A stretch of 41,890 nt of DNA from the IMG/VR virus record IMGVR_UViG_3300048591_000756, positions 1 through 41,890 of that record, one strand, 5' to 3'. The translations under genes were made by a program, and so were the position numbers. Numbering within the stretch: the stretch's first letter is position 1; every line of letters begins with the position of its first letter. The stretch comes from a virus. Positions 1,349 to 18,488 of the stretch are shown one piece after another. Below the pieces are notes generated by a model. It had not been told where the DNA came from. It searched no databases and saw nothing but the letters and a program-made list of their open reading frames with translations.

Positions 1349-1828
1349 ATGCCACCCGACGACGAAGCCATCATCGCCGGTTGCGCACGCCGTTTCTGGC
1401 GCGGCCTGAGCCCCGGCCTGACGCGCGATGACCTGATGCAGGAAGGCCGTATCGCTATCTGGCTCGCCGAACGCGCCGGGCGAGTGCCGACCGACCCCGA
1501 GCACCGATTGCGCTACATCCGCGCGCGGGCGCTCGGCGCCATGCGCGACGCCAACCGCCGCGCATGGCGCCAGTTGCCGATGACGATCGACGAGCTCGAC
1601 GAGGAAAAGCCACAAGCCGCCGGCGACGCGCAGCCCGACGCAACCCTCCAGCTGCGCCAGCTCATCGCGCACTTCGCCCGGCGCGGATCGGCGCGCGTGC
1701 AAGAGTGCGTCGAACTGTGTGCCAGCGGCTGCTCAGGCGACGAAATCGCAACCCGCATGGGCATCTCGCGCTCGCGCGTATCGCAACTACAGCATGAAGC
1801 ACGAACCACCGCCGCCGCGCACTGGTAA
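1349..1828 (+). CDS. RNA polymerase sigma-70-like factor
   Basis: 159 residues. The N-terminal half resembles sigma region 2: RDDLMQEGRIAIWLAER followed by RLRYIRARALGAMRDANRRAWRQLP, the usual DLxQEG helix and the basic helix after it. A short linker leads to a region-4-like HTH at about 118-150 (CASGCSGDEIATRMGISRSRVSQLQHEA). It is near the size of ECF or phage sigma-like regulators. It sits just before the endolysin-holin gene, so control of lysis or late transcription is plausible. The family assignment rests on motifs; the target promoters are unknown. Confidence 0.75.
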   Translation: MPPDDEAIIAGCARRFWRGLSPGLTRDDLMQEGRIAIWLAERAGRVPTDPEHRLRYIRARALGAMRDANRRAWRQLPMTIDELDEEKPQAAGDAQPDATLQLRQLIAHFARRGSARVQECVELCASGCSGDEIATRMGISRSRVSQLQHEARTTAAAHW

Positions 1829-1976
1829 TCGCGTCGTGCAAATGACGCGCGAGCAGCAGCGGCGCCAGGACATGCAGGTGCAATGGCTGCAGGAAGCCGT
1901 CGCCGCGCAGGCGCGATCGCCCGCCGACGAAACCTACGACCGCGCAACCCTCCACATCGCAAGGGCCAAACGATGA
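1794..1976 (+). CDS. Small hypothetical protein between sigma-like gene and endolysin
   Basis: 60 residues if it starts at ATG 1794, inside the end of the sigma-like gene; ATG 1842 is an alternative giving 44 residues. The product is polar, Gln/Arg/Ala-rich and probably helical. Its TGA overlaps the endolysin ATG (1973-1976), the junction style used throughout this genome, which is the main support that it is translated. No family recognised. Confidence 0.55.
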   Translation: MKHEPPPPRTGNRVVQMTREQQRRQDMQVQWLQEAVAAQARSPADETYDRATLHIARAKR

Positions 1977-3046
1977 ACGTCGAGCAGCTCGCCGACGCGC
2001 TGAAGCACCCGAACTTGCAGGCATTCCTGCGCGTCATCAGGGCCGGCGAATCGTCGCAGGACGACAGCGCCTATACGGCGATGTTCGGCGGCGAGCACTT
2101 CACCTCGTTCGCCGACCACCCGCGCCGCGTCATCACGAAGGGGCGCTACACATCGACGGCGGCGGGTGCCTACCAGTTCCTTTCGCGCACCTGGGACGGG
2201 CTCGTCCGGCAGTACGGCTTCGCCGACTTCTCGCCCGCCTCGCAAGACCTCGGCGCCGTCGCGCTCATCGCCGGCCGCGGTGCGCTCGCCGATGCGCTCG
2301 CCGGACGCATCGAAGCCGCCATCGCCAAGTGCGGCCGCGAGTGGGCCAGCCTGCCCGGCAGCCCCTACGGCCAGCCCGTGCGCACGCTGGCGCAGGCCCT
2401 CGCGACTTATGCCGAGTTCGGCGGCACGCGCGATGCCGCGCAACCCGAAACGACCGCGGCGCCCGCCGCATCCACCCCGCCGGCCCGCCCGGCAAAGGAG
2501 AAGACGATGCCGATCCCCCTCATCCTCGGCGCGCTGCTGCCCTCGCTCGTCCAGGCCATCCCGAAGCTCGGCGCCCTGTTCGGCAGCGGCTCCGAGGTTG
2601 CGGAGCGCAACGTCGCCGCCGCGACGACCGTGATGCAGATCGTGCAGGACGCCACCGGCGCGCGCAACGCGCAAGAAGCCGTCGAGATGATCCAGACCGA
2701 CCCGCAAGCCCTGCAGGCCGCCACCAAGGCCGTGCAGGACGACTGGTTCACGTTGACCGAAGCCGGCGGCGGCGGCATCGAGGGCGCGCGCAAGGCGGAT
2801 GCCGACTTTTCCGCATCCGGCCGCAAGTCCGTCGAGTCTCCCGCTTTCATCCTGAGCCTCGTCCTGCTCGCGATGCCCTTCCTGCTGCTGATCGACGTGT
2901 TCTTCGTGCACCCAGACAACTACCTGAGCGAGCTGCGCACGCAGATCGTGACCGGCGTACTGATGGTGATCAGTATGGTCGGCGCGTTCTGGCTGGGGTC
3001 GAGCTTCGGAAGCATGAAGAAGACCGAGGCCGGCGCACGCGAGTGA
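1973..3046 (+). CDS. Endolysin (lambda R-type lytic transglycosylase) fused to 3TM holin
   Basis: 357 residues. Residues 1-155 match the lambda R endolysin family (GH104 lytic transglycosylase): LQAFLRVIRAGES with the likely catalytic Glu26, then GGEHFTSFADHPRR, STAAGAYQFLSRTWD, DFSPASQDLGAVALI and WASLPGSPYGQP. An Ala/Pro/Thr-rich linker (about 155-178) leads to a domain typical of stand-alone 3TM phage holins, with hydrophobic spans near its start and at about 290-312 and 322-342. No stop separates the two, so one frame encodes both lysis functions. A ribosome-binding site and ATG inside the linker suggest the holin is also made alone. There is no signal peptide on the endolysin part. Confidence 0.85.
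   Translation: MNVEQLADALKHPNLQAFLRVIRAGESSQDDSAYTAMFGGEHFTSFADHPRRVITKGRYTSTAAGAYQFLSRTWDGLVRQYGFADFSPASQDLGAVALIAGRGALADALAGRIEAAIAKCGREWASLPGSPYGQPVRTLAQALATYAEFGGTRDAAQPETTAAPAASTPPARPAKEKTMPIPLILGALLPSLVQAIPKLGALFGSGSEVAERNVAAATTVMQIVQDATGARNAQEAVEMIQTDPQALQAATKAVQDDWFTLTEAGGGGIEGARKADADFSASGRKSVESPAFILSLVLLAMPFLLLIDVFFVHPDNYLSELRTQIVTGVLMVISMVGAFWLGSSFGSMKKTEAGARE
2507..3046 (+). CDS. 3TM holin from an internal in-frame start
   Basis: Alternative product of 179 residues beginning at ATG 2507, in frame with the endolysin. The sequence AAAGGAG at 2494-2500 lies six bases upstream, a near-ideal Shine-Dalgarno. The product begins MPIPLILGALLPSLVQAIP and has the length and three hydrophobic segments expected of a complete 3TM holin. 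That the site is used is inferred from the signal and from the family's normal start. Confidence 0.6.
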   Translation: MPIPLILGALLPSLVQAIPKLGALFGSGSEVAERNVAAATTVMQIVQDATGARNAQEAVEMIQTDPQALQAATKAVQDDWFTLTEAGGGGIEGARKADADFSASGRKSVESPAFILSLVLLAMPFLLLIDVFFVHPDNYLSELRTQIVTGVLMVISMVGAFWLGSSFGSMKKTEAGARE

Positions 3047-3151
3047 CGGGCCGCGCCTCCCCCGCAGAGAGAGTGTGAGCCACGCCTGTATTCCACGCGC
3101 CTTTACTGGTCCGGCGCACGCGGCGGCATCGCCAAGCTGCACGGCCACCTG

Positions 3152-3355
3152 GTGCAGCTCACCGAAGCGCCCGCGATCCCCGGCCTGCGCCTCGTCGCCA
3201 TCGACTACGTCCCCGAGATCGGCCTGCGCCAGGTGATGCCGCACGGCCACGCATGGCGCGACATGACCGACGCCGAAGCGGCGCACGCCGACAGGCTGCT
3301 CCAAACCCTGACGGCCGACCTGCGCGCAATGAGCCCAGCCTCGCCGTCGAGCTGA
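3152..3355 (+). CDS. Small hypothetical protein after the lysis genes
   Basis: At least 67 residues from GTG 3152. Protein-like sequence in the same frame extends upstream to about 3086 (LYSTRLYWSGARGGIAKLHG), but the only start codon there is CTG 3086. The true start is therefore uncertain, or a base is missing near 3078. The C-terminal part (WRDMTDAEAAHADRLLQTL) has the look of small proteins that follow phage tail or lysis genes. Function unknown. Confidence 0.5.
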   Translation: MQLTEAPAIPGLRLVAIDYVPEIGLRQVMPHGHAWRDMTDAEAAHADRLLQTLTADLRAMSPASPSS

Positions 3356-3487
3356 TCGACGTGTAGTGGGATGGGGCGCTCCGGCTTCTAACCGTCCCGC
3401 TACAGCCCGCATAAAACCGTGCTCGACCTGAGCGCTGTACGTTAGACGAATCGCCCGCCAGCCCGCGTGTAAACTAGTTTCTCTAGT

Positions 3488-3535
3488 TGGTTTGGGACCA
3501 GTAGGTCGCGAGTTCGAATCCCGCCACCACGACCA
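3488..3535 (+). other. attP core: 3' half of a tRNA-Pro(UGG) gene
   Basis: The segment begins in an anticodon stem, carries the loop TTTGGGA with anticodon TGG, then an arm with TTCGAATC, and ends in ACGACCA. A discriminator A after G72, implying a C1-G72 pair, is typical of bacterial tRNA-Pro. The 5' half of a tRNA is absent upstream, so this is not a tRNA gene but the usual phage att core that restores the host tRNA 3' end. The T-arm has one A-C mismatch (3511 with 3521). The integrase genes lie immediately to the right. The rest of 3356-3610 holds no convincing gene. Confidence 0.85.
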
Positions 3536-3580
3536 ATGAAATCAAGTAGTTACGTCTGTCGGTGCATCGCCTCTAGCGGT

Positions 3581-3604
3581 TTTTCTAACGACGTTTTCTA
3601 ACGA
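3581..3604. repeat. Direct repeats beside attP, candidate integrase arm sites
   Basis: The 11-mer TTTTCTAACGA occurs at 3581-3591 and again at 3594-3604. A related inverted element (CGTTAGA, 3440-3446) lies on the other side of the attP core. Repeats flanking a core on both sides are the layout of arm-type sites for tyrosine integrases or of Xis sites. Assignment is by position only. Confidence 0.45.
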
Positions 3605-3610
3605 AATGCC

Positions 3611-4018
3611 TCATGACAACTCAACATCGTCGCCGAACTTGCTGGCGACGTAGGCGCGCATCGCGGCGATCAACGCCGTTGCGCCTTTGTGGGAACGCCC
3701 GAGGATCGTGACGTAAATCGCTGAGGCAAATCCGCTTTCCTCATCCCGCCAGCCGCTCGCCGAGATTTCAGTCGCCGCGACGGCAAGCCACATATGACGG
3801 TCGTCCGAGATGACGGAAATATGTTCGCGCTCGATGATCGGCCATCCGTCGCAGGGGTCAGTTGAAGGGCGATACCCGCGTCCGCGCGGCCCCTGATCGT
3901 AGTTCACCCCGTCGTCGATCCATGGGCTCCCCCACATCGAAACGCGCGGGTCGTTAACCGCTTTCGCCACTGCCTCATCGAGCAACCGGCCTTCTAGTTC
4001 GTGGATCTTGTGCTTCAT
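3611..4018 (-). CDS. DUF2591-family phage protein
   Basis: 135 residues. It shows the hallmarks of DUF2591 proteins: an N-terminal LEGRLLDEAVAKAV helix, a central STDPCDGWPIIEREHI, and a C-terminal ATALIAAMRAYVASKFGDDVE. These are small phage proteins of unknown function. Its start overlaps the integrase stop by four bases (ATGA), making it the last gene of the long leftward operon, adjacent to attP. Confidence 0.85.
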   Translation of the reverse strand: MKHKIHELEGRLLDEAVAKAVNDPRVSMWGSPWIDDGVNYDQGPRGRGYRPSTDPCDGWPIIEREHISVISDDRHMWLAVAATEISASGWRDEESGFASAIYVTILGRSHKGATALIAAMRAYVASKFGDDVELS

Positions 4019-5070
4019 CTCGTCGCTCCAGTCTTCCGCGGCGTCTTGTGCCGCACATAGTCCGCCGTCTGCCCCTCGGTGCTGTGCTGCCCCATCTTCT
4101 GCGCCTCGCGGATGCCTTCGCGGGCTTCCTTGTCGGTCAGCGCCTTGGCCTTCAGATCGTGGAAGTGGCAGGCCGCCACGCCGGCGCGTTCCAGCGCGCG
4201 GCGCCAGGCGCTGGCGACGCCCCAGTAGCTCATCGGCTGGCCGTCCTGCTTGACGAACACGGCGGCGCCGAACGCGCGGCGGTGCTTGCGCAGATCGCGC
4301 AGGCGGCGCTCCACGTCGCGCAGCTTGTCGGTCCACCCGATCATCACCTTGGCGCCGGTGCTGTGCGCCACCTTGGCGCGCGCGAAGGTGATGCCGTCGC
4401 GGCCCATCTGGTGCCATTCGAGCGTGAGCAGGTCGCCGATGGCCTGGCCCGTCAGGTACGCCATGTCGATCAGCGCGCACAGCATCGGGCCGCTGCGCGT
4501 GTCGATGTCATTGCCGTGGCCGTCGGGCGCGCGCAGGGCGGCGACCTTGATGCGGCGCAGCTCGCTGTCGGTGATGTAGCGCCCGCGCGGCGGCGTGCGC
4601 AGCGTGCGGATCGACTGCAGCGGGTTGCTGCCGGCCGGGCGCAGGCCGCGCTCTTCCGCGAAGCGCATCAGCTCGCGCAGCTGCGCGCGGTAGGCGTTGT
4701 GCGTGCGCGGCTTGGCGCGGAACTGCGCGAGGAAGACGCTGCAATCCGGCGTCTCCACCTCGGCCGGCGTGAAGTCGGCGAACGCCTCGGCGATCGCGGC
4801 GCCGTAGCGGCGGTCGTCGGCCTGCGTCTTGGCGGCGTGCGCTGGCATGACCTCGCGCTCCCACAGGCTGACGAGCGCCGGCACGCGCCCGACGCCGGCC
4901 GCCTGCGCCTGCACGGCCGCGAGCGCGGTGTAGAGCGCCGGCAGCCCTTCGGAGATCTTCGACAGCCCCGTCCAGATGCGCTTCTTGCCCTGCGCGCTGA
5001 CGAGGTAATACCGCTTGCCCTTGGCGAACACGCTGCGGGGCAGGGCGTTGCGGTTGCGCGATGTCGTCAT
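4015..5070 (-). CDS. int: Phage tyrosine integrase with altered catalytic residues
   Basis: 351 residues with arm-binding N-terminus, SAM-like core-binding domain (about 85-160) and catalytic domain (about 165-345), next to attP as expected. The catalytic set is partly unusual. The motif normally read as TGQR-I-GD is LTGQAIGDLL here, so the first catalytic arginine is Ala210 (codon GCC). The HxxR box is H304-D-L-K307. His329 (MGQHS) and the nucleophile Tyr338 (TADYVR) are present. Loss of the first arginine usually abolishes cleavage in this family, so activity is doubtful unless another residue substitutes. It is coupled to flanking genes by ATGA overlaps. Confidence 0.88.
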   Translation of the reverse strand: MTTSRNRNALPRSVFAKGKRYYLVSAQGKKRIWTGLSKISEGLPALYTALAAVQAQAAGVGRVPALVSLWEREVMPAHAAKTQADDRRYGAAIAEAFADFTPAEVETPDCSVFLAQFRAKPRTHNAYRAQLRELMRFAEERGLRPAGSNPLQSIRTLRTPPRGRYITDSELRRIKVAALRAPDGHGNDIDTRSGPMLCALIDMAYLTGQAIGDLLTLEWHQMGRDGITFARAKVAHSTGAKVMIGWTDKLRDVERRLRDLRKHRRAFGAAVFVKQDGQPMSYWGVASAWRRALERAGVAACHFHDLKAKALTDKEAREGIREAQKMGQHSTEGQTADYVRHKTPRKTGATR

Positions 5071-5360
5071 GCTGCCGCTTTCTCGTGGACCATGAGCCGC
5101 ACCTTCGGCCGCGCCGGCTGGCCCGCGCCGGCGCAGACGGCATCATAGTGCGCCCGCTCGAGGATCACGCGCCCGAACCGATCCCGCCGCGCCCGCGCGA
5201 AGCCCTGCCGGTGCAGCTCGTCGAGCTGGCGCGCAGGCTGCGTGTAGCTGGTGAGGGCGTGCAGCTCGGCGGGGGTGAGGGTGAGGGTGAGATCGGGACT
5301 CACGCCACGCCGGGCGCACGTCGAGCAGGCCGGTATCCACTCGACGGCTTCGGTCGTCAT
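5067..5360 (-). CDS. DUF4224-family protein
   Basis: 97 residues. The central [27 protein letters not shown] and [14 protein letters not shown] match DUF4224, a small domain commonly encoded immediately before phage tyrosine integrases and thought to be excisionase-like or DNA-binding. An N-terminal CSTC pair is present. It overlaps intI upstream (5357-5360) and int downstream (5067-5070) by four bases each, so all three are translationally linked. Confidence 0.75.
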
Positions 5361-6412
5361 GCCTGCGCCATCCTGTCGAGTGGGCTCATCGCCCCGTGCC
5401 CGCCGGCCCGGTTGACGACGTGGGTGTAGATCTGCGTCGTGCTCACGTCGGCATGGCCGAGCAGCTCTTGCACGGTACGGATGTCGGCGCCGGCCTCGAG
5501 CACTTGCGTGGCGAATGAGTGGCGCAGCGTGTGCACCGTCGCGCGCTTTTCGATGCGCGCAGCCGTTACCGCGGCGCGCATCGCGCGCTGGACGTTGACC
5601 TCGTGCAGGTGGTGCCTGCGCACGACTCCCGTGCGCGGGCAGGTGCAGTAGCCGGGTGACGGGAAGACAAACTGCCAAGCCCACTCCGCGCCGGCGCGCG
5701 GGTACTTGGCGGCGAGTGCGTGCGGCAACTCCACGTCGGCCATGCCCTTGGCCAGGTCCACGTCGTGCAGCTTGCGCCGCGTGGCGAGCTGGGCGCGCAG
5801 TGTGGACACCAGCGTGTCGGGGAGCATCGTCGTGCGGTCCTTGCCGCTCTTGCCGTCGCGGATGGTGATGACGCGTCGCTCGATGTCCAGATCCTTCACG
5901 CGCAGGCGCAGCGCCTCCATCAGCCGCATGCCGGTGCCGTAGAGCAGCCGCAGCACGAGCCCCGGCGTGCCGTGGGTGGCAGCGAGAAGGCGCCGCACTT
6001 CGGCCTGGCTGAGCACTGCAGGCAGGTGCTGCGACGGCTTGGCGCGCACGAGGTTGTCTAGCCATGGCAAGTCGACGCCGAGCACGGCGCGATACAGAAA
6101 CAGCAGCGCCGAGAGCGCCTGATTCTGCGTGCTGGCGCTCACGCCGTGCTCGACGGCCAGGTGCGTGAGGTAGGCCTCGACTTCGGCCGCGCCCATGTTG
6201 CGCGGATGGCGCCGCCCGGACCACGCGACGAACTTGCGCGCCCATGCGACGTAGGTGCGCTCGGTGCTCAGCGAGTAGTGCTTGACGCGGCACGCGATGG
6301 CGATGCGCTCCCACAGGTTCGGCGATGCCGTGCTAACCGGCTCGCGCGTGTCGTGTATCGGCGCGAGTGTCGTAATACTCGGCGAGGTTGGTGCGACTTC
6401 GAGGTGGCTCAT
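5357..6412 (-). CDS. intI: Integron integrase IntI
   Basis: 351 residues with strong IntI character. Catalytic residues are all present: Arg163 ([14 protein letters not shown]), Lys in DGKSGKDR, His294-TL-Arg297 ([10 protein letters not shown]), His320 ([10 protein letters not shown]) and Tyr329 (IYTHV). The stretch from about 213 to 251, including [10 protein letters not shown], the [10 protein letters not shown] segment and AWQFVFPS, is the additional region found in IntI but not in ordinary phage or XerC/D recombinases. The N-terminus has about 30 extra residues. The gene points away from an attI-like site and cassette array, the standard integron geometry. Its TGA overlaps the DUF4224 start, so it is embedded in the phage operon. 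Confidence 0.95.
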
Positions 6413-6475
6413 GGGCGTCCGATCCAGTTATGCGACAGGCCGGCTCAGGTGGGTGTCGTAGACATCACGTTAGGC
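6413..6475 (+). other. attI-like site
   Basis: The 63 bases between the intI start codon and the first cassette contain one canonical core, GTTAGGC at 6469-6475. The partner core on the other side is only poorly matched (around 6426-6432). A single good core next to the intI 5' end distinguishes attI from attC. A weak GCGACA / TGTCG inverted pair lies inside. Confidence 0.7.
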
Positions 6476-6681
6476 CCCAACACATACGCGCGGCCTTCAG
6501 GCCCGCATACGCCGTTGGGCGCGCGTGCATCGGCACAGTAGCCCATCGCCGGCCAGCCTGGTTCGTGCCCTACTCGCAGTGCCATGCACTTCCAGATTCG
6601 GCCGCCCTTCTGTTGCCGCAGGTTTGCGCACTGGCGGCACTGTTGTGCCCACGGCGGCTCAGCTCTTTGTGGTTCAGCCAT
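6445..6681 (-). CDS. Cassette 1 gene a: small Cys-rich protein
   Basis: 78 residues with a CRQC pair (16 and 19) and further cysteines at about 32, 49 and 59, so a zinc-binding fold is possible. The segment MALRVGHEPGWPAMGYCADARAP is strongly protein-like. It is the last of three genes in cassette 1, runs opposite to attC orientation, and its final codons cross the cassette boundary at 6469 into attI. I recognise no function. Confidence 0.65.
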   Translation of the reverse strand: MAEPQRAEPPWAQQCRQCANLRQQKGGRIWKCMALRVGHEPGWPAMGYCADARAPNGVCGPEGRAYVLGPNVMSTTPT

Positions 6682-6684
6682 GTG

Positions 6685-6957
6685 TCAAGCCTTCCCTGTC
6701 AGGTCAAACGCAGCGCGCAGGCGAGCCAGGTGCTCTTGGTTCATGTGCCCATCGTCCAGCAGCCATTCCACGGCCTGCATCAGCGGCTTGTGGCGTTCAA
6801 GCTCTGCCGCGTAAGTCTCCGCTGCCTTGCTCCATGTGTGCGCCTCGCGCTTCAGGGCTGCGTTTTCGGCGAGCATCCGTGCCAACTCTTGCTGCGCCTC
6901 TTGCGTGGTCACATAGAGCGTGATGTTTCCGTCAGCCACGCTCGCCCCCAATACCAT
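6685..6957 (-). CDS. Cassette 1 gene b: hypothetical coiled-coil protein
   Basis: 90 residues from ATG 6957, with GGAG a few bases upstream; GTG 6939 is an alternative. Residues 20-60 are helical with heptad character (EAQQELARMLAENAALKREA), and the C-terminus is helical as well. It overlaps gene c by 26 bases and ends three bases before gene a. Function unknown. Confidence 0.65.
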   Translation of the reverse strand: MVLGASVADGNITLYVTTQEAQQELARMLAENAALKREAHTWSKAAETYAAELERHKPLMQAVEWLLDDGHMNQEHLARLRAAFDLTGKA

Positions 6958-7372
6958 GCGCACGCTCCAGCAGGCGCGCAAAGGCGTGGTGCACCTCGTC
7001 TGCAGTCTCGTCGGCGTTTGCCGCGTCCCACAGTTCCTCAATTTCCAGCGGGTCGCGGGGCTCCCTCTGCGCTTCGTGCAGCGCAGCGTGCATGGCGCGA
7101 AGTTGCGCGTTGGCCGCTGCGTGCCACGTCATGTCCCGCTTGTTCATCGGCACCCAAGACAAGTCGAGTGCCGCCCTGCGGCTCACCGGGGTTGCCCGCT
7201 CCATCGCCTCGCGCGCGTCCTTCAGGTCGCATTGCAGCCGCAGCACTTCCTGCCACAGCAGGCCCAGTATCTCGCCAGCCTTCTCGGTGTGCTCAATGGT
7301 CCCGAAGGCCACCGGGTGCGAGGTCATGCTCATTGCAAGCTGCCTCGCTTCTTCCAGTTTTTGCTTATCCAT
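6932..7372 (-). CDS. Cassette 1 gene c: hypothetical helical protein
   Basis: 146 residues, charged and helical throughout, without membrane segments. Segments such as LLWQEVLRLQCDLKDAREAMER and DPLEIEELWDAANADETADEVHHAFARLLERA look like real coding sequence. It starts 50 bases inside the cassette from the attC at 7422. Together with genes b and a it forms a three-gene operon within one cassette, which is unusual since most cassettes hold one gene. No family recognised. Confidence 0.7.
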   Translation of the reverse strand: MDKQKLEEARQLAMSMTSHPVAFGTIEHTEKAGEILGLLWQEVLRLQCDLKDAREAMERATPVSRRAALDLSWVPMNKRDMTWHAAANAQLRAMHAALHEAQREPRDPLEIEELWDAANADETADEVHHAFARLLERAHGIGGERG

Positions 7373-7421
7373 GTCGTTTAGTCATAGTACGGTTGCACTG
7401 TCTCGCTTCGGGTCGGTTGGG

Positions 7422-7496
7422 GCCTAACACGCCGGTCAAGGGCGACACCCTACGGGCTGACGCCCTCCGGGTGCGCCTTACCGGCAACGTTAGAGC
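7422..7496 (+). other. attC site of cassette 1
   Basis: Outer cores GCCTAAC (7422-7428) and GTTAGAG (7489-7495). Inside, GCCGGT pairs with ACCGGC, AAGG with CCTT and CACCC with GGGTG, with extra unpaired bases (C, G, A) all on the left arm. Extrahelical bases on the inverse-core side fix the orientation as left to right, away from intI. Confidence 0.85.
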
Positions 7497-7503
7497 TCAC
7501 GGC

Positions 7504-8232
7504 TCACTGGCCGTCATCCAGACTGCCGTCGTCGTACTCTGCGGCGAAGCTCTGCGCCAGCCGGTCGTGGAATGCGTCGTCGCTCTTGTCGAACAGGATC
7601 TGTTCGCAGTACACGTCGGGCTTCGACTCCAGCAGGAAGTGCGTCGCGCAGGTCCAGGCCTTTGCCTCGTCCTTCGCCTCGGGCGTCATGCGCTCGCTGC
7701 GGTCGATGGCCACCAGGTGCGGGCACTTCCGGCACTCCTGCCCCAGTGCGCACCGCAGGTGGTTGTCCTTCAGCGGGGTGGCCGGACGCGGGTCCAGCCC
7801 GCACATCTTGTAGCTGTCTGGCATGCCGCGCTCGCGCTCGTACTGGAACAGCAGCACCATGCGCGGCACCTCGTCGCTGACGGTCTTGGCCGTGTACATC
7901 ATTCGCGGGAACTCCTGCCAAGCGGCGCGCAGCCGGTCGCTCTCGGCGTTGATCGCGCCGTGCCACGCGCTGTCGCCGCAGCCGCGCTGGTCGGTGCCGC
8001 GGTTCGCGCGCTCCAGACGCATGCCGCGCATGTAGCCCGCGCCCTCCTTCAACTGCTCCAGCATGTTGCCGCGGTCGCTGGCGTAGCGGCGCAGGAACAC
8101 GCCTGCCATGTGCCGGTCCTTCTGCTCGGGCGTCATCTTGTCGTGGTCCATGCCAGCCCACTGCCACAGCTTCTCGTGGTCAATGCGGTCGGCCAGCGCG
8201 CGCAGTTCGTCGGGGTCGTTGTAGCTCGCCAT
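7504..8232 (-). CDS. Cassette 2 gene: hypothetical protein, Cys-containing
   Basis: 242 residues, the largest cassette protein. It is hydrophilic, with a Cys/His cluster in the second half (CGLDPRPATPLK, LRCALGQECRKCPHL, TCATHFLL), possibly metal-binding. It starts 25 bases from the attC at 8257 and stops eight bases before the attC at 7496, filling the cassette. Codon use is similar to the phage. I do not recognise the family; a role in host defence or counter-defence is only a guess from location. Confidence 0.8.
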   Translation of the reverse strand: MASYNDPDELRALADRIDHEKLWQWAGMDHDKMTPEQKDRHMAGVFLRRYASDRGNMLEQLKEGAGYMRGMRLERANRGTDQRGCGDSAWHGAINAESDRLRAAWQEFPRMMYTAKTVSDEVPRMVLLFQYERERGMPDSYKMCGLDPRPATPLKDNHLRCALGQECRKCPHLVAIDRSERMTPEAKDEAKAWTCATHFLLESKPDVYCEQILFDKSDDAFHDRLAQSFAAEYDDGSLDDGQ

Positions 8233-8256
8233 CGCTTCCTCGCTTCGGGGCCGGCG

Positions 8257-8342
8257 CTCTAACTCTTCGCCCGAGCGGACGGCCTCCAGGGTTGTTCAAT
8301 GGCCCGCACCCAGCGGGCCGCCTCTCAGCTCAAACGTTAGGC
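8257..8342 (+). other. attC site of cassette 2
   Basis: Outer cores CTCTAAC (8257-8263) and GTTAGGC (8336-8342). The right end reads GCTCAAACGTTAGGC, the classic R' side of attC elements, and GAGC on the left pairs with GCTC on the right. Central hairpin GGCCCGC / GCGGGCC gives a longer stem than the other two sites. Orientation is away from intI. Confidence 0.85.
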
Positions 8343-8639
8343 CCCACGAGGCTTTCCGTCAGGCCCGAACACAGTGGCATCGGCCAACTTCTCGGCGAGC
8401 AGGCGCCCGAAAAGGGTCTTCGCCCCCTCGTTGTTCGCGGCAGGCGTGCTTACCTTGGCAATCGCCTCAACCGCACTGGCCCAAACGGCCGATCCGTGGC
8501 CTGACGCGAGCAACGGGTCAATGATCCGCACGTCTTCAAACTTCGCCACCTTGACCGGCACCAAGCCGGCATCCCTCAGCGCGGCCAAGTCTTGCGGTGT
8601 CAGCTTGGCGCCGTCGCGGTACAAGAAAATCTGTGCCAT
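8337..8639 (-). CDS. Cassette 3 gene: hypothetical small protein
   Basis: 100 residues from ATG 8639, with GGAGAAG seven bases upstream. Starts MAQIFLYRDGAKLTPQDL, then a compact alpha/beta-looking sequence with no membrane segment. Its TAA stop (8337-8339) lies inside the attC core GTTAGGC, a typical cassette arrangement, but on the strand opposite to the attC orientation. Function unknown. Confidence 0.75.
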   Translation of the reverse strand: MAQIFLYRDGAKLTPQDLAALRDAGLVPVKVAKFEDVRIIDPLLASGHGSAVWASAVEAIAKVSTPAANNEGAKTLFGRLLAEKLADATVFGPDGKPRGA

Positions 8640-8665
8640 TCGTCTTCTCCATTTATTCGAGTGTG

Positions 8666-8721
8666 GCCTAACCATTCATTCCAGCCGACGCCTACGGCGC
8701 GGCTGAATTCAAACGTTAGCT
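8666..8721 (+). other. attC site of cassette 3 (terminal)
   Basis: 56 bp with GCCTAAC (8666-8672), AGCCG-A-CGCC, a TAC loop, GGCG-CGGCT and GTTAGCT (8715-8721). Spacing, the extra A on the left arm and the flanking words closely resemble the aadA-type attC read in its gene-to-GTTRRRY direction. This gives the clearest orientation evidence in the array: left to right, away from intI. Confidence 0.9.
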
Positions 8722-8936
8722 GGCAGTGCGCTGCGCAAAATCGCCACGCACGTCGGGGACGTCGCGTTGTGTGGATACCCAGCGCACGCGCGAGATATGG
8801 TCGCCCGCAATGCGCGAACTTCGCGCGCCAACGCATCCATCGCCATCTGGTCGCCGCTAGGTGCAACGGCTTCCACGACGCCCCATGTGTCTGCCCACTT
8901 CAACGCTGCATCCACAGTCCAACGATCGGCTGCCAT
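8709..8936 (-). CDS. Small early protein whose 3' end lies in an attC site
   Basis: 75 residues; its ATG overlaps the upstream stop (TGATG), so it belongs to the phage operon. The last codons and the TGA (8709-8711) fall inside the terminal attC, so the present C-terminus (LPANV) was created by the array junction. The body (WTVDAALKWADTWGVVEAVAP, then DALAREVRALRATI) is helical. Function unknown. Confidence 0.7.
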   Translation of the reverse strand: MAADRWTVDAALKWADTWGVVEAVAPSGDQMAMDALAREVRALRATISRACAGYPHNATSPTCVAILRSALPANV

Positions 8937-9226
8937 CACCCCTCCAGCCGATGCCGCACGATCGACGTGATGCCGTTTGGCAAAGCGGCGCTGTCGTCTG
9001 GCCGAGCGATGAAGCTGCTTTTCGCGTCGCCATCCGTCGCGCGGATGTGATCGACCTCGAGCCTGCCGGTGTCGATGATCGTTTTGCTGATCTCGTTGAT
9101 CGCGCGCGCCTTGTCCAGCTCGACGCTGCCGGCGCGCACCGCGCGCAGGGTTTCGAACAGGTGGGCGCGCAGCGTCGTGATGTCGTCTTGCGCGGGTGCG
9201 CTGGCGGGTGCGGTTGGCTCTGTCAT
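8936..9226 (-). CDS. Hypothetical early phage protein
   Basis: 96 residues. A helical central segment (TTLRAHLFETLRAVRAGSVELDKARAINEISKTII) resembles small phage early proteins found next to HNH endonucleases, possibly DNA-binding, with ISKTIIDTGRLEVDHIRA after it. ATG 9226 overlaps the HNH stop by four bases. No confident family. Confidence 0.75.
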   Translation of the reverse strand: MTEPTAPASAPAQDDITTLRAHLFETLRAVRAGSVELDKARAINEISKTIIDTGRLEVDHIRATDGDAKSSFIARPDDSAALPNGITSIVRHRLEG

Positions 9227-9927
9227 GGCGTGGGGCTTTCGGGGCTTTCGGTGGGACGGGCGCCGGCTTGGCGCGCCTTGCGGTTGATCTGCCGCGCGAG
9301 CGCGCCACGCAGCTGTACCAGGCGCGCGATCTCGGGCGGGTAGTTGGCGTGCACCGAGTTGCGGTGCATGTTTTCGGCGCGCGTGATGCACTCGACGGCG
9401 TCGAGCGTGATCTCGGCCTCGACGGTTGTTTTCTTGCCAGGTCGGAAGACAACCACCGAGCCCGCCGGCACGGCGCCGTGCGCGGCTTCCCAGATGCTGC
9501 GATGCAGGCCCACCCAGTCGCGCGGCGCGTAGCCGGTGTCGGTCAGTTTGCGTTGCAGGTAGCCGTCGGCATTCACGCGCAGGCTGCCGACGGGTTTCCA
9601 GGTGTGCGGCCGATTGCCCGGGCCGAAGTGATGCGCCGCGGTGTTCGGGTGCAGCCCGCTCACGCCGATCGTCCCCGCGTTCCACGGCCGGTGGTCGGGG
9701 CCGAAGCGCCACGCCATGCCCACGCCGTCGCCGCGGCGCAGGCGGCACGCATCGTCGCTCGCCAGGTAGGCGGGCGTCTTGCGCAGGCCAAGGTGCTTTG
9801 CCTTCATGTACACGCTCTTGAGCGGGACGCCGAGCGCGTCGGCGATGCGTGACGTGAGCATGTGCGGGTAGTCGCGGCGCAGGATGGCGGTGCGCTCGGC
9901 GGTCCAGGTGACGCGGGGGCTTTTCAT
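9223..9927 (-). CDS. HNH endonuclease with N-terminal HTH
   Basis: 234 residues. Residues 1-50 look like a winged-helix or Myb-like specificity domain (ERTAILRRDYPHMLTSRIADALGVPLKSVYMKAKHLGL). Residues about 110-190 are HNH-like: SLRVNADGYLQRKLTD, WVGLHRSIWEAAHGAVPAGSVVVFRPG and ITRAENMHRNSV, the arrangement of phage HNH_3-type enzymes. Either a homing nuclease or a phage-encoded DNase. It is joined to both neighbours by ATGA overlaps, so it is a settled operon member rather than a recent insertion. Confidence 0.85.
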   Translation of the reverse strand: MKSPRVTWTAERTAILRRDYPHMLTSRIADALGVPLKSVYMKAKHLGLRKTPAYLASDDACRLRRGDGVGMAWRFGPDHRPWNAGTIGVSGLHPNTAAHHFGPGNRPHTWKPVGSLRVNADGYLQRKLTDTGYAPRDWVGLHRSIWEAAHGAVPAGSVVVFRPGKKTTVEAEITLDAVECITRAENMHRNSVHANYPPEIARLVQLRGALARQINRKARQAGARPTESPESPTP

Positions 9928-10193
9928 AGCGGCTCGCGCGTCTGCGCATCGAACCAGCCGCGCTCGATGTCCCAGCGCAGCAGCACGGCGCCGAGGCGGT
10001 CGTCGATCGACACGCGCAGCGTCGGGCAGTGCTTCGGGTCTTCACTGTTGTGCAGCGTCTTGATGAGGTCTTCGGCGGCATCGAGCACCAGGCTCGTCTG
10101 CTCGTCGTCGGCGGCGTCGAAGCGGCCGAGCACTTTCCACGCGCCGGAATTGTTGAGCTCCAGGCGAACTGGTTTTGCGATGGCGGTGCTCAT
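9924..10193 (-). CDS. Hypothetical early phage protein
   Basis: 89 residues, soluble, beginning with a beta-like MSTAIAKPVRLELNNSGAWKVLGRFD and then a helix DDEQTSLVLDAAEDLIKTLHN. Resembles small early proteins of Burkholderiales phages but I cannot name a family. ATGA overlaps on both sides. Confidence 0.7.
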   Translation of the reverse strand: MSTAIAKPVRLELNNSGAWKVLGRFDAADDEQTSLVLDAAEDLIKTLHNSEDPKHCPTLRVSIDDRLGAVLLRWDIERGWFDAQTREPL

Positions 10194-10822
10194 CCGAACG
10201 GCCCCTCGTAAGCCGCCCCGCGCTCGGCGTCGGCGGCGGTTGCGAACTGCTGGCTGCGCGCATAGTCCAGCTCCGCGAAGCGGTCGATGAACGCCTGGCG
10301 CCAGTCCTGCCACGCCATCGCGTCACGCCCGTCCAGCCGCGCCCAGCCGAGCGGCGGGTGCGTCACGCTCACGGGCCATTCGGGGCCGCACGGCGGCATC
10401 AGCTGCGCGCGCTCGGTGCTGAGCGCGCAAAGATCGGCCCAGCGGATGTCCTTCGCCGCCGACGTGCTCGCGACAAGCACACCGAAGCGCCGCCGCACGC
10501 TCCACGCGACGCGGTTCTCCACCTCGTGCCACGCGGCGCCGATCGCCTGCTTCATCGGGCTCGACAGATCCGCCGTGTACGCCTCGTGCGCATCGTGCAG
10601 CAGCGCGGCCAGCAGCACCGACGGGCTGCGGATGCCGATCTCGCGCTCCGCGATCTCGCACACCAGCAGCGAGTGCTCGGCAACGCTGTACGGCCGGCTG
10701 CACGCGCCGGTGTAGCGGTTGAGCTGCGCCAGATGGTGCGCGATGTCGGCGAGGCGGATCTGCTCCGGCGCGACGAGGCGCAGGTCGATCGTCGCGCCGG
10801 TGGCGGTGAGCATCCAGGTCAT
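10190..10822 (-). CDS. HD-domain phosphohydrolase (YfbR-like)
   Basis: 210 residues. Metal-binding HD motif is clear: YSVAEHSLLVCEIA (His50), LLAALLHDAHEAYTADLSSPMK (His76-Asp77, His79, Asp85). This is the pattern of YfbR-type 5'-deoxynucleotidases and related phage HD proteins. A role in adjusting nucleotide pools during replication fits its early-operon location. Substrate is inferred from the family. Confidence 0.85.
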   Translation of the reverse strand: MTWMLTATGATIDLRLVAPEQIRLADIAHHLAQLNRYTGACSRPYSVAEHSLLVCEIAEREIGIRSPSVLLAALLHDAHEAYTADLSSPMKQAIGAAWHEVENRVAWSVRRRFGVLVASTSAAKDIRWADLCALSTERAQLMPPCGPEWPVSVTHPPLGWARLDGRDAMAWQDWRQAFIDRFAELDYARSQQFATAADAERGAAYEGPFG

Positions 10823-11061
10823 CGCTTCGGCTCCTCGGCCAGGCCGCGCCAGGGAGCGTCTTGCGTGATGGATTCGATGAGCTGGAAGCGCTCGGCGCGC
10901 TCTGGTGTCTGCGCGCTGTGGCCCCAGTGCTTGCCCGTGTAAAAGCTGTAGGGCGCGAGCGGGGTGTCGCGCTCGTAGACGCCGGGCTGGCCGGGCACGC
11001 AGGTGCCGCCGTGATACCAGCGGGTGACGGCCAGGCCGTGGCGGGGCGGGCGGCGCGTCAT
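10819..11061 (-). CDS. Hypothetical early phage protein
   Basis: 80 residues, aromatic and Gly-rich: WYHGGTCVPGQPGVYERDTPLAPYSFYTGKHW. This pattern (GxPGVYER, then a tryptophan-containing turn) occurs in small early proteins of proteobacterial siphophages. Function unknown. Overlaps the HD gene by four bases. Confidence 0.65.
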   Translation of the reverse strand: MTRRPPRHGLAVTRWYHGGTCVPGQPGVYERDTPLAPYSFYTGKHWGHSAQTPERAERFQLIESITQDAPWRGLAEEPKR

Positions 11062-11066
11062 GCTGC

Positions 11067-11939
11067 TTACGCGCACGCGCCCATGAACATCGGCATCGCG
11101 CCGAGGCCCGCGCGCACTTCTTCGATCAGCTCTTTCGCCGCGCCGTCGTGCACGCGATCCGGCCGCACCAGCTCGTAGTGAAAGTTCACCTTGCCGGCGG
11201 ACAGACGGTATTTCAGCCGTGCCGTGAGTGCCCATGCCGCGCTGCCGTGAAAGACCGGGATGCCGATCGCGAAGCGCTCGAACATCTGCATTGTCTCGGT
11301 CGTCCCGGCGTCCGGGTCGGCGATGTACGTCAGGCGCACGCCGCCGCTCTGCAGCTTCACGGTGGACTTGAGCACGCGCTCTTCGTTCGCCACGAACTCC
11401 GTCGCCATCGCGTGCATCTGCAGGCTCGTCGGCAGGCCGTTGGCGTTGCTCGTGATGTCGTCCTCGTGCTCCTGAATCCACTCCGCGAACGTCACCTGCG
11501 GCATGCTCGTCGTGTTCTTGCCCTTCCACGCCTTCCACTCGGCGCTCATCTCCGGCACCAGCGTGGCGCGGTGCGCGCGCCAGCCCGGTTTGCCCTTCTC
11601 GTGCTCGTCGAACACGGCCGTGAAATCGAGCGCGAAGGACTGCGGATCGAACGTGCACCAGACGGCCGACCCAGGCGTCGCGTGGCGCTCCACGTAAGCC
11701 AGGAAGCTCGGCACCGCGCTGAAGCGCGCTGTCGCTTTCGTGCGGCGCGGGTTGGGCAGCAGCGCTTCCAGGTCGATGCGCACTTCCTGCAGCACGCTCG
11801 CCTTCGGCACCGCGACATGCGCGATCGTCAGGCCCTCGATCTGCGTCTCGATCGTGCTCACGACCTTCGCTTCGGGCAGCACCTCGGCCAGGGTTTCGGC
11901 GATGTTCCGGGGGGCGGGCGTTTGGGCGGTGGTTTCCAT
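11067..11939 (-). CDS. DUF2303 family protein
   Basis: 290 residues matching DUF2303 (YfdQ-like), widespread in phage early regions: ETLAEVLPEAKVV, RFSAVPSFLAYVERHATPG, TAVFDEHEKGKPGWRAHRA, FAEWIQEHEDDI and a C-terminal HYELVRPDRVHDGAAKELI. Function is not established, though such genes travel with recombination or replication genes. Five bases separate it from the next gene downstream; 49 bases upstream of its start are non-coding. Confidence 0.88.
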   Translation of the reverse strand: METTAQTPAPRNIAETLAEVLPEAKVVSTIETQIEGLTIAHVAVPKASVLQEVRIDLEALLPNPRRTKATARFSAVPSFLAYVERHATPGSAVWCTFDPQSFALDFTAVFDEHEKGKPGWRAHRATLVPEMSAEWKAWKGKNTTSMPQVTFAEWIQEHEDDITSNANGLPTSLQMHAMATEFVANEERVLKSTVKLQSGGVRLTYIADPDAGTTETMQMFERFAIGIPVFHGSAAWALTARLKYRLSAGKVNFHYELVRPDRVHDGAAKELIEEVRAGLGAMPMFMGACA

Positions 11940-11988
11940 TGCGTGTGTGACCTTTTCTGTGATGTGAGGTGATGTGAGGTGGGGGCGT

Positions 11989-12345
11989 TCAGGCGGTGAG
12001 GATTTCGCCGCTGTCCGGGTCGATGTTGCGCACCTGCGTTGGCGCCCCGGGCGCCACGCGCAGATCCAGCTTGCGCTGCGTCGGGTTGTCCAGCACCAGG
12101 TTGCCCTCGACCGTCGGCCACAGCAAATCGGCATCGGGCGCCGCCTCGGGCACCTTGTTCGTCGCCTTCGCGGTGATCGCCAGCGCGCCGCCGGACTTCT
12201 TCAGGTCGAGCGTGATCGTCAGCTTGCCGGCCTTGCCGGTCTCGTCGACGCTGCGCACGACCTCGCTGAGCAGCTCGCTGCACTCGTCGAGAAAAACCCC
12301 GCCTTGCAGCAGGCGCAGGGTGTCGGTGATAGGTCGGATGCTCAT
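11989..12345 (-). CDS. Hypothetical early protein preceding DUF2303
   Basis: 118 residues. MSIRPITDTLRLLQGGVFLDECSEL and KLTITLDLKKSGGALAITAKATNKVPEA make a compact beta-rich protein that recurs beside DUF2303 genes in siphophages. Probably a nucleic-acid or protein-binding accessory; function unknown. ATGA overlap with the OB-fold-like gene. Confidence 0.75.
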   Translation of the reverse strand: MSIRPITDTLRLLQGGVFLDECSELLSEVVRSVDETGKAGKLTITLDLKKSGGALAITAKATNKVPEAAPDADLLWPTVEGNLVLDNPTQRKLDLRVAPGAPTQVRNIDPDSGEILTA

Positions 12346-12776
12346 GTGGTCCTCTCGGTGGTGGGTAGATCGGTGGTGAGTGAGTCGGTGGATGCGTGCC
12401 GCTCGGCGCTGCGCTGCTCGATCTCGATATCGCGCACGCTGCCCACGAAATAGGCCAGCGTGCCGTGCCGGTAGCGGATGCGCAGGCCGTCGCCGTGCAC
12501 CGTGACGATGTCGCCGGCGCGCAGCGCCTGCGCGCGCTCGGCGGCGTAGAACGCCGCGTCCGGCCCGTCGCCAACCCAGCGCGTGGCGACGACGACAGGC
12601 TCGCCCGCGCCCTGCGCCAGCGTGACCGAAAACGACGCCCGGCCGGTGGCCGGCTCGGTGCCGCTGAAGGCGTCTTCGAGCAGCGGGCCGGTGAGCACGA
12701 CACGCATCGGCTGCGCCGGGGCGCAGGGCGTGACGGCGGCGGGGGTGGGGCGGCGGATGAGGGTGCTGGGGGTCAT
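12342..12776 (-). CDS. OB-fold / single-strand-binding-like protein
   Basis: 144 residues. Residues about 24-120 follow the single-strand-binding-protein layout: MRVVLTGPLLEDAFSGT, then GRASFSVTLAQGA, VVVATRWVGDGPDAAF, LRAGDIVTVHGDGLRI and a final YFVGSVRDIEI. A short acidic/Thr-rich tail follows. If SSB-like, it would coat replication or recombination intermediates. Assignment rests on pattern and operon company, so moderate. Confidence 0.55.
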   Translation of the reverse strand: MTPSTLIRRPTPAAVTPCAPAQPMRVVLTGPLLEDAFSGTEPATGRASFSVTLAQGAGEPVVVATRWVGDGPDAAFYAAERAQALRAGDIVTVHGDGLRIRYRHGTLAYFVGSVRDIEIEQRSAERHASTDSLTTDLPTTERTT

Positions 12777-13105
12777 GCCAACCCCCAAGCCACCAGCCAC
12801 CCCTGCAGCGGCCCCCAGCCGATCCACAGCAGGCCGACTGCCATGCCGCCGGCGGCGATGCCGCAGACGCAGCCCCAGTGCCAGCCGAGCTGATACCCGA
12901 TGCGCTCGCCGCGGTCATAGCCGTCCTGCGTCGCGGCGCTGATGAGCAGGTCGCGGCGCTCCACCTGCGCTTGCCAGCGCTTGTTGTCGGCGTTGGCGCG
13001 GGTGCGGCAAATCTCTTCGACGTTCGGCCGGCTCGGGAAGCTGATCGGGCGCGGCGCGCGTGCCGGCGTTGCGCGCCCTGCGGTGCCGAGGATGCTGCCG
13101 CTCAT
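12773..13105 (-). CDS. Small membrane protein
   Basis: 110 residues. Soluble N-terminal half with a basic region, then one or two hydrophobic spans at about 74-108 (YQLGWHWGCVCGIAAGGMAVGLLWIGW). ATGA overlaps on both sides. A membrane protein made early suggests superinfection or host-envelope effects, but that is inference. Confidence 0.65.
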   Translation of the reverse strand: MSGSILGTAGRATPARAPRPISFPSRPNVEEICRTRANADNKRWQAQVERRDLLISAATQDGYDRGERIGYQLGWHWGCVCGIAAGGMAVGLLWIGWGPLQGWLVAWGLA

Positions 13106-13716
13106 GCCCGGCCCCTGGCGCGCCGAAGCCGCGCGCCGACAATCAGCGCCGTGGCGCCAGCGAGCAGCATCTGCCAGGCGGCCGGCTCCGGTACCGGAGA
13201 GATCGGCGCGGTGGGTGGCGTGGGTGGCGTGATGGCGAGCACCTCGGCCGGCAGTTCGTATCGGTAGCCGCAGTCCGTCCACCAGGTGGAAAGGCCGGCC
13301 GGCGTCTCGGCGGTGACGCGCGCGAAGTAGTCCACATCGCCCTGGCAGTTGATCGGTCCTGCCTGCGCGGCGGGGGCGAAGAGCGCGAGTGCGGCAACGG
13401 TGAGCACGATCAGCATGGCAAGCAGCCAGGCCGGAATCTCGCGCGATCCCGTCGGCGCGGGGGCGATGCGCGCCGGGTCGTCGGCGCTGGCGAGCACGCC
13501 CAGCACGCGCTGCATCCAGCGCGGCACTGGGCGTGCGGCGTGCGCCGCTGGCGCTGCGCTGCGCGCCAGTTCGCGGCGTGCGTCGATCGTCGCGGCCAGC
13601 ACGGCGTGCGCGGTGCGTTCGTTGCGCGGCGTGCGGTGCTGTGCTGCCAGCTCGGCGTTGATCGCGTCGCTCGCGGCCAGCAGCGCGCGGCGCTCGTCGG
13701 CATGCGCGGCGCTCAC
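13102..13716 (-). CDS. Phage protein with C-terminal PEP-CTERM sorting signal
   Basis: 204 residues. Residues 1-93 are soluble and helical. Residues 95-117 are hydrophobic and end in APAAQA, like a signal peptide, though internal. A small extracytoplasmic segment with two cysteines (124, 149) follows. The C-terminus is a textbook PEP-CTERM: VPEPAAW (175-181), a hydrophobic stretch (182-195), then RLRRARGRA. Such tails are processed by exosortase EpsH in Gram-negative bacteria. Met101 (13416) is an alternative start that would give a conventional secreted protein. Confidence 0.75.
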   Translation of the reverse strand: MSAAHADERRALLAASDAINAELAAQHRTPRNERTAHAVLAATIDARRELARSAAPAAHAARPVPRWMQRVLGVLASADDPARIAPAPTGSREIPAWLLAMLIVLTVAALALFAPAAQAGPINCQGDVDYFARVTAETPAGLSTWWTDCGYRYELPAEVLAITPPTPPTAPISPVPEPAAWQMLLAGATALIVGARLRRARGRA

Positions 13717-14021
13717 AGGGCCACCTCGGCGAAGCGGCTTTCCAGGTCGGCGACCATGCTCGCGCGGCGGCGTTCGAGCGCGGCGGCTTCGTCAACGGTT
13801 GGCACGCCGATCGCCCATTCGAGCGCGGCGATCAGCGCGCGCACCTCGCTGGCTGTCGGGCTCAGGTGCAGCGTGGCGCAGCCGGTGTAAAGCGCCAGCG
13901 AGACGCGATCCGTCTTGTCGGCGTGCTCGGCGGCGCCGGTGCCGAGCGGCCAGACCGAGATGTCGGCGCCGTACTTCGCGAGACCCAGCAGGCCGTCGAT
14001 CCGTATTTGTTTCTGTGGCAC
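13713..14021 (-). CDS. First gene of the leftward operon, hypothetical
   Basis: 102 residues from GTG 14021, chosen because GAAGGAG lies seven bases upstream; GTG 14039 lacks a good site. Contains HLSPTASEVRALIAALEWAI, a helical region, and a final helix with ESRFAEVAL. It follows the leftward promoter by about 40 bases. Unknown function; position matches small early regulators or antirepressors. Confidence 0.7.
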   Translation of the reverse strand: MPQKQIRIDGLLGLAKYGADISVWPLGTGAAEHADKTDRVSLALYTGCATLHLSPTASEVRALIAALEWAIGVPTVDEAAALERRRASMVADLESRFAEVAL

Positions 14022-17489: not shown

Positions 17490-18488
17490 ATGGACGCGCA
17501 CCAGGTGCTCGACCAGATGCTGGCCGCCGGGCTCGAGGCGCCGCCGCTGCCGCTCGACGTGACGGGCCGGCTGCATCGCTTCGGGCGCAAGAAGGCGAGC
17601 TGGTATCGGCTGCGCGAAGAGCGGCTCGATTCGGGCCGGCATGTGCTGCTCGGCAACTTCGGTTGCTGGCGTTCTGGCGTCTCGCAGCGCGTCAGCGTCG
17701 ACTGGCGCGGCATCGGCGAGGCCGAGCGCGCCGAGCTGGCCGCGCAGCGCGTGGTGCGCAATGCGGCGGACCAGGCCGCCCGCGCGAAGCTTGCGGCGCT
17801 GGCGCAGATGTCCGCCGGCGAGATCTGGCGCAGCGCCGTGCAGGCGGGCGAGAGCGCCTACCTGAAGCGCAAGGCGGTGCAGGCCGAGGCCTGCCGCTTC
17901 CTGCCCGACGGCTCGATCGTCGTGCCGCTGCTGCGCTACGACGCGCCGCGCGAGAGCGCGCTGCGCGCCGTGCAGCGCATCTGGCCGGACGGTCGCAAGC
18001 GCTTCACGCGCGGCTTCGAGAAGGCGGGCTGCAGCCTGCGCCTCGGCCTGGTCACGCTCGGCGAGACGATCCTGGTGTGCGAGGGCTACGCCACCGGGCT
18101 GACGCTGCGCATGGCGACATCGCGGCGCGTGCCGGTGTTCGTCGCGCTCGACGCCGGCAACCTGGCGCCGGTGTGCCGCCTGCTGCGCGATCTGTACCCG
18201 GCTTGCCCGCTGCTGATCTGCGCCGACGACGACTGGCGCACGCACGGGCCCGATGGCGCGGCGCTGAACGTGGGCCGCGCGAAGGCGCACCAGGTGAGCC
18301 GCGAGATCGAGCGGGTGAGCGTGACGTATCCGGCGTTTCGCATCGCGACGCGCGGCGATGGCGATACCGATTTCAACGATCTGCACTGTCGTGACGGCCT
18401 GCCCGAGGTGGCGCGCCAGATGCGCTGGGTGCTGCGCCATCTGTCGCCGGCGCTGTTCGGCGACGTGCCCGCGCTGGCCGCGGTCTGA
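17490..18488 (+). CDS. Toprim-domain primase-like protein
   Basis: 332 residues from ATG 17490. The second half is a Toprim domain: ILVCEGYATGLTLRMA with Glu198, FVALDAGN and LLICADDDW (Asp246-Asp248). An N-terminal phage-primase-type region (DVTGRLHRFGRKKASWYRL) precedes it. Lies directly upstream of a superfamily-3 helicase, the usual replication pair of such phages, so it is likely to prime phage DNA synthesis. Confidence 0.85.
   Translation: MDAHQVLDQMLAAGLEAPPLPLDVTGRLHRFGRKKASWYRLREERLDSGRHVLLGNFGCWRSGVSQRVSVDWRGIGEAERAELAAQRVVRNAADQAARAKLAALAQMSAGEIWRSAVQAGESAYLKRKAVQAEACRFLPDGSIVVPLLRYDAPRESALRAVQRIWPDGRKRFTRGFEKAGCSLRLGLVTLGETILVCEGYATGLTLRMATSRRVPVFVALDAGNLAPVCRLLRDLYPACPLLICADDDWRTHGPDGAALNVGRAKAHQVSREIERVSVTYPAFRIATRGDGDTDFNDLHCRDGLPEVARQMRWVLRHLSPALFGDVPALAAV

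Follow-up and report, generated by a model that had tools for sequence, protein, structure and literature searches.

The window analysed here is the complete IMG/VR virus record IMGVR_UViG_3300048591_000756 (41,890 nt), which encodes terminase, portal, capsid and tail proteins and belongs to a temperate, siphovirus-like phage. The termini (1-253 and 41638-41890) carry a direct repeat of about 253 bp, with one mismatch or more, which is consistent with a complete genome that is circularly permuted, or circular with an assembly overlap. A primase-helicase is split into two ORFs (17490-18488 and 18549-19988), the two matching successive portions of a single PHROG primase family. The structural genes lie mostly on the plus strand, and every gene from an integron integrase gene (intI) to about 14 kb lies on the minus strand. 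Between intI and the leftward phage genes is an array of three cassettes, the first of which carries three genes. R1 and R2 below are the two rounds of an attC covariance model.

4015-5070, minus: phage tyrosine integrase for prophage integration (Pfam PF00589, 2.2e-11; phrog_1, 3.8e-28)
5357-6412, minus: integron integrase IntI (NCBIfam TIGR02249, 427.3 bits against a cut-off of 265)
6413-6475: attI, with the insertion point at 6469^6470, 57 bp from the intI start codon
6445-6681, minus: cassette 1 gene, likely coding, 78 aa, Cys-rich; the ORF crosses the cut site and stops inside attI
6470-7489, attC polarity plus: cassette 1, between the attI and attC cut sites
6685-6957, minus: cassette 1 gene, 90 aa
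6932-7372, minus: cassette 1 gene, 146 aa
7422-7496, plus: attC of cassette 1 (R2, 44.9 bits; none on the minus strand)
7490-8336, attC polarity plus: cassette 2, between cut sites
7504-8232, minus: cassette 2 gene, 242 aa, conserved protein
8257-8342, plus: attC of cassette 2 (R2, 50.2 bits)
8337-8639, minus: cassette 3 gene, 100 aa, with the R' box TTA serving as its TAA stop
8337-8715, attC polarity plus: cassette 3, between cut sites
8666-8721, plus: attC of cassette 3, the array's last (R1, 46.5 bits; R2, 55.2 bits)
8709-8936, minus: flanking phage gene, an ORF whose end lies in the last attC, 7 nt to the left of its cut
8936-9226, minus: flanking phage gene, phrog_2044
9223-14021, minus: leftward phage genes (HNH nuclease, dNMP phosphatase and others), in the same direction as the cassette genes

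The tyrosine integrase at 4015-5070 gave no match to the integron-integrase model. The tyrosine-recombinase motifs R, HxLRH, H and Y are invariant in the IntI alignment. The attI site lies on the start-codon side of intI; across the IntI clade described below, the motif GTCG-N-GAATTYAAG^TT or a near variant adjoins intI (in the window, GTCGTAGACATCACG^TT), with a distance to the intI start of 37-82 bp for almost every member examined and 112 bp for L010.

Polarity of the attC sites and strand of the window genes

A home-made attC finder, first too strict and then too loose, was used only to seed the covariance model, which was built in two rounds from other loci only (R2 from 67 attC, with the window excluded). 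R1 missed two of the window attC because of their bulges and loop length; R2 recovered both and found exactly three strong attC, all on the plus strand, the sole scoring site on the minus strand being 8666-8721 at 18.7 bits. Extra-helical bases lie on the left arm of the window attC, as they do in the aadA7 attC. Scoring on both strands thus upheld the polarity away from intI that the first-pass annotation had read from this asymmetry (55.2, 50.2 and 44.9 bits on the plus strand), and the minus strand was not favoured. The geometry of attC to intI was likewise canonical across the loci surveyed, barring a few weak hits.

The R boxes are palindromic, so few bases decide polarity, and a misread polarity would turn these genes into ordinary forward ones. 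We reject this very improbable reading: the plus scores of R2 far exceed the minus scores at all three sites, attI adjoins intI with the expected cut site, and a natural insertion in two related contigs (described below) reveals the direction of entry.

The G^TTA cuts (6469^6470 in attI, then 7489^7490, 8336^8337 and 8715^8716) delimit three cassettes, in place of the five that the initial annotation implied. Four of its five proposed minus-strand genes were called on that strand. The fifth, 6445-6681, has a codon score of -14.9 and is likely coding, its minus assignment coming from position and cysteine-rich composition only. Strand evidence is strongest for the 242-aa gene (7504-8232), with a codon score of +38, minus-frame homologues of 62-84% identity and an excess of third-codon-position substitutions that also places it in the minus frame; a long plus-strand ORF across the array has a codon score of -39. 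The assignments of 6685-6957 and 6932-7372 (codon score) and of 8337-8639 (the cassette test described below) are supported by weaker scores.

Homologues of these genes in other arrays, which the first-pass annotation had proposed to look for, were found for some. Those of the 242-aa gene are reversed in the L025, L029 and L200 arrays; 6685-6957 shares 45% identity over 49 aa with a reversed cassette of L002; and 6932-7372 has a partial minus-frame homologue in L030, where its N-terminal 39 aa are 90% identical to 8001-8117 (a reversed cassette) before similarity ends, suggesting a mosaic cassette gene. Viral scans with two small window cassette proteins, that of 8337-8639 among them, gave no match, and neither did a plasmid search with the 242-aa protein, whose AlphaFold model has a pLDDT of 43.7. 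Phages L026, L027 and L028 encode homologues of the 242-aa protein with no attC detected, so the gene also occurs as an ordinary phage gene. None of the five window proteins has a known function.

Stop codons sit at the cassette boundaries, as had been noted at first pass. The gene nearest intI extends into attI and stops there both in the window and in L200. The stop of the flanking gene 8709-8936 falls in the same -7 register as those of other reversed genes; this phage-side gene may be a former cassette.

Cassette orientation in related arrays

Homologues of IntI and of the 242-aa cassette protein pointed to relatives of the array in viral contigs; duplicates among the contigs were filtered or dropped from the tallies. 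Each cassette was assigned by the best ORF score per strand between attC pairs, with codon models from GC-matched loci; the gene caller was home-made and left about 40% of cassettes uncalled. Under the strict rule the viral set held 46 reversed, 2 forward and 42 uncalled cassettes. A lax rule, permitting a stop as far as 75 nt to the left of the cut, gave 55 reversed against 2 forward in 19 viral contigs; the strict tally drops an L010 interval that holds intI, and the lax count still includes one such interval. First cassettes of viral arrays were reversed in nine cases and forward in one.

Integrons from bacterial genomes, fetched with the same IntI alignment and scored by the same measure, served as controls and gave 0 reversed and 28 forward cassettes under strict and lax rules alike (Fisher p = 8.7e-19 for viral versus cellular on strict counts, although cassettes of one array are not independent of each other). 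Counted by locus, mostly reversed arrays numbered 14 and forward ones 2 in the viral set; 14 cellular arrays were forward and none reversed. A held-out set of new viral contigs, drawn from the best 80 of 340 confirmed viral-contig IntI relatives with near-copies removed, gave 51 reversed cassettes and 1 forward in 30 contigs (25 loci reversed, 0 forward); the contigs are metagenomic, and shared descent lowers the independence of these orientation counts. The few forward cassettes are in L005, L006 and L207, together with the first cassette of L011. Reversal is thereby confirmed as general in this phage lineage, a near-universal rule, and the class of reversed cassettes suggested at first pass extends over about 50 viral contigs, held-out set included, set against the cellular controls.

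One candidate phage integron, L020, was reclassified as a host integron: its cassettes are forward and its IntI groups with Lysobacteraceae, so it is best read as host DNA. This IMG/VR record carries a chromosomal Lysobacteraceae-type integron, probably through over-extension of the provirus.

Comparison of reversed genes in 11 homologous pairs counted 366, 304 and 678 differences at the first, second and third codon positions of the reversed frame. The stops of reversed genes cluster at the R' box, with 21 of 71 using the TTA of the box as TAA and those in other frames often lying 7 nt either side of it; stops at cassette boundaries are thus general among reversed genes. Array genes run the same way as intI and, at most loci, as the phage genes past the array's end. 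In the window, the match to leftward phage genes that the initial annotation described extends over every gene between intI and about 14 kb. The genes flanking the window array, phrog_2044 included, also adjoin arrays in other phages.

In a first tree the window IntI fell in a clade of 22 viral sequences and one contig from a bacterial bin (SH-aLRT 96); in an enlarged FastTree analysis the same clade comprised 68 viral sequences and the same bin contig (support 99). That contig, L039, is 34,391 bp long, as is viral record L191, and has a serine integrase beside intI. The neighbour of intI in clade members is usually the phage's own integrase or a ParB gene. In L011, L013 and L014 a ParB-domain protein of 620-640 aa is encoded immediately downstream of intI, hinting at integron-carrying phage-plasmids. 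Terminase, portal, tail or tail-sheath genes share contigs with arrays in about 12 other records, and the array-bearing phages have terminases of three families and tails of either siphovirus-like or myovirus-like type. L010, a myovirus-like phage, has an unusual layout with attC on both sides of intI (1714-5118 in reverse-complement coordinates). IntI was not detected in two phage contigs with reversed arrays, L025 and L029, each an attC cluster without integrase.

Cassette mobility and gene content

Around attI, contigs L199 and L200 match without a difference over 1093 bp and 578 bp, and L200 has one extra cassette of about 520 bp, with two reversed genes, at the attI G^TT. This pair of empty and filled attI sites indicates that canonical insertion delivers reversed cassettes. 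Whole-cassette differences at cut sites separate the members of the near-identical pairs L013/L014, L138/L139 and L165/L169, and L022 and L196 have a methyltransferase cassette in common, cut to cut, at 97.5% identity. From such indels and sharing, the reversed genes are ordinary mobile cassettes with canonical entry; this mobility was seen in relatives of the window array, not in the window itself. The same observations lead us to reject the notion that the attC are fixed, hairpin-like punctuation between the genes of an ordinary phage operon with nothing mobile. The homologues of the 242-aa gene in L026-L028, where attC went undetected, speak for that notion, which becomes extremely unlikely given the cut-site indels between contigs with no other difference and the cassettes shared cut to cut.

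The reversed ORFs match 64 PHROG families. Many of 65 reversed cassette proteins match families of N6/N4- and C5-DNA methyltransferases, MT-A70 and Dam, and further families are Mom-like, dATP/dGTP pyrophosphohydrolase, PAPS reductase, DHH and HD. When the longest forward ORFs were taken from these same cassettes (56 proteins), none matched a PHROG family; plus-strand homologues, which would have spoken against the minus-strand assignment, thus failed to appear among family matches. The DNA methyltransferases and the Mom-like, dNTP pyrophosphohydrolase and PAPS-reductase-like genes suggest that such an array is possibly a repository of exchangeable genes for DNA modification or counter-defence, a function drawn from the family names of relatives' cassette genes.

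Expression from the phage operon and relation to known integrons

Since recombination polarity is canonical, the reversal resides in the cassettes themselves. Our main reading, at a probability of roughly 0.78, is of a complete phage-resident integron whose reversed cassettes are read by the phage operon and selected for that direction. Circular cassettes would be drawn from a pool whose genes run antiparallel to attC and would enter at attI in the usual direction, each gene starting just inside attC and ending at the leading edge of the cassette, where the TTA of the R' box would be read as TAA. Ordinary insertion would then place the genes head to tail with intI and the leftward phage genes. 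Transcription of the cassettes would come not from Pc but from phage-operon read-through entering at the array's far side; intI would be co-transcribed with them, replacing a LexA-controlled promoter of its own, and phages would retain only those cassettes readable in the operon direction.

LexA-like boxes upstream of intI were found in 0 of 21 phage loci versus 7 of 28 cellular loci. Shared direction, the lack of LexA boxes and the short gap between intI and attI lead us to infer selection for expression. The proposal made at first pass, that the phage selects cassettes its own promoter can express, therefore stands in part: a reversed class and co-direction were found, but a promoter scan found no sigma-70-like consensus promoter.

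The main rival is a founder effect, in which genes antiparallel to attC were made once in a pool closed to the clade, and orientation was inherited, not selected. Co-direction fits selection and descent alike, because the intI-bearing reversed arrays form one IntI clade; the cassettes common to clade members and the outcome of the promoter scan also agree with descent. We nevertheless consider a founder effect unlikely. The cassette families are very diverse and reversed nearly throughout, so that a leaky pool would need selection; the rule is common to phages with different terminases and tails; and Shewanella phage M16-3, whose cassettes are forward, still matches its neighbouring phage genes in direction, as a co-direction rule would predict (a single case).

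Orientation could also act through the DNA strand, if transcription of reversed genes left the recombinogenic bottom strand of attC displaced and so raised cassette turnover. Folded bottom-strand attC do recombine, and the orientation of an array relative to replication alters excision rate (PMC11023631). The whole-cassette differences between near-identical phages would fit such turnover, but exposure of the strand by transcription is conjecture here, and we regard this account as less probable still than a founder effect.

Understanding of integrons centres on forward cassettes expressed from Pc. The window element is an integron by the defining features: a TIGR02249 IntI, attI, attC of one polarity and, in relatives, mobile cassettes. 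It departs from a typical, not strictly defining, trait in that its genes are not readable from the intI side by Pc, and LexA control of intI, common but not defining, is absent. Sedentary chromosomal integrons (Lysobacteraceae, Burkholderiales, Nitrosomonadales and Vibrio) share the TIGR02249 IntI, attI beside intI, attC structure and polarity, and an array extending away from intI. Their genes, however, are forward and Pc-readable, several have LexA boxes and they lie on the chromosome, whereas the phage lineage has reversed genes, no LexA boxes and a phage genome as its setting.

Published phage integrons (Shewanella phage M16-3, Vibrio phages and P1; Qi et al. 2023, PMC9892861) likewise combine phage-borne intI, attI and attC, and their attC are recombinogenic with IntI1 (PMC9892861). 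Their IntI are only 43-54% identical to that of the window, and M16-3 differs from the window lineage in having forward cassettes and a LexA site; a search of the text of PMC9892861 for cassette orientation found no mention of reversed cassettes. In the 'reverse' integrons of Treponema (PMC3607928), intI and cassette genes are also transcribed one way, but there intI is turned towards attI, whereas in the present lineage it is the genes inside the cassettes that are turned, next to a canonical intI. Single reversed cassettes, such as symE in Xanthomonas (PMC12444791), similarly have a gene running against the Pc direction, as isolated exceptions where the present lineage makes it a near-universal rule. 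We found no report in the open-licence PMC literature of an integron lineage with reversal as its rule. No bacterial integron among those tested had this arrangement, suggesting a phage-specific integron lineage with reversed cassettes. The fuller view, of a lineage exclusive to phages that keeps its genes back to front, uses the phage operon and not Pc, and holds swappable modification or counter-defence stores, seems to us slightly better than an even bet.

Canonical recombination combined with turned genes indicates that the integron platform can be rewired to another promoter, and the lineage offers a natural test of what determines cassette orientation. How cassettes with antiparallel genes form bears on the unsolved origin of cassettes. 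Bacterial integrons have lately been described, in papers cited in PMC12444791, as libraries of anti-phage defences. If our reading is true, these phages would possess a counterpart to the integrons in which bacteria store anti-phage systems, and the arms race would have such a gene-capture device on the phage side too, partly filled with DNA methyltransferases and other modification genes.
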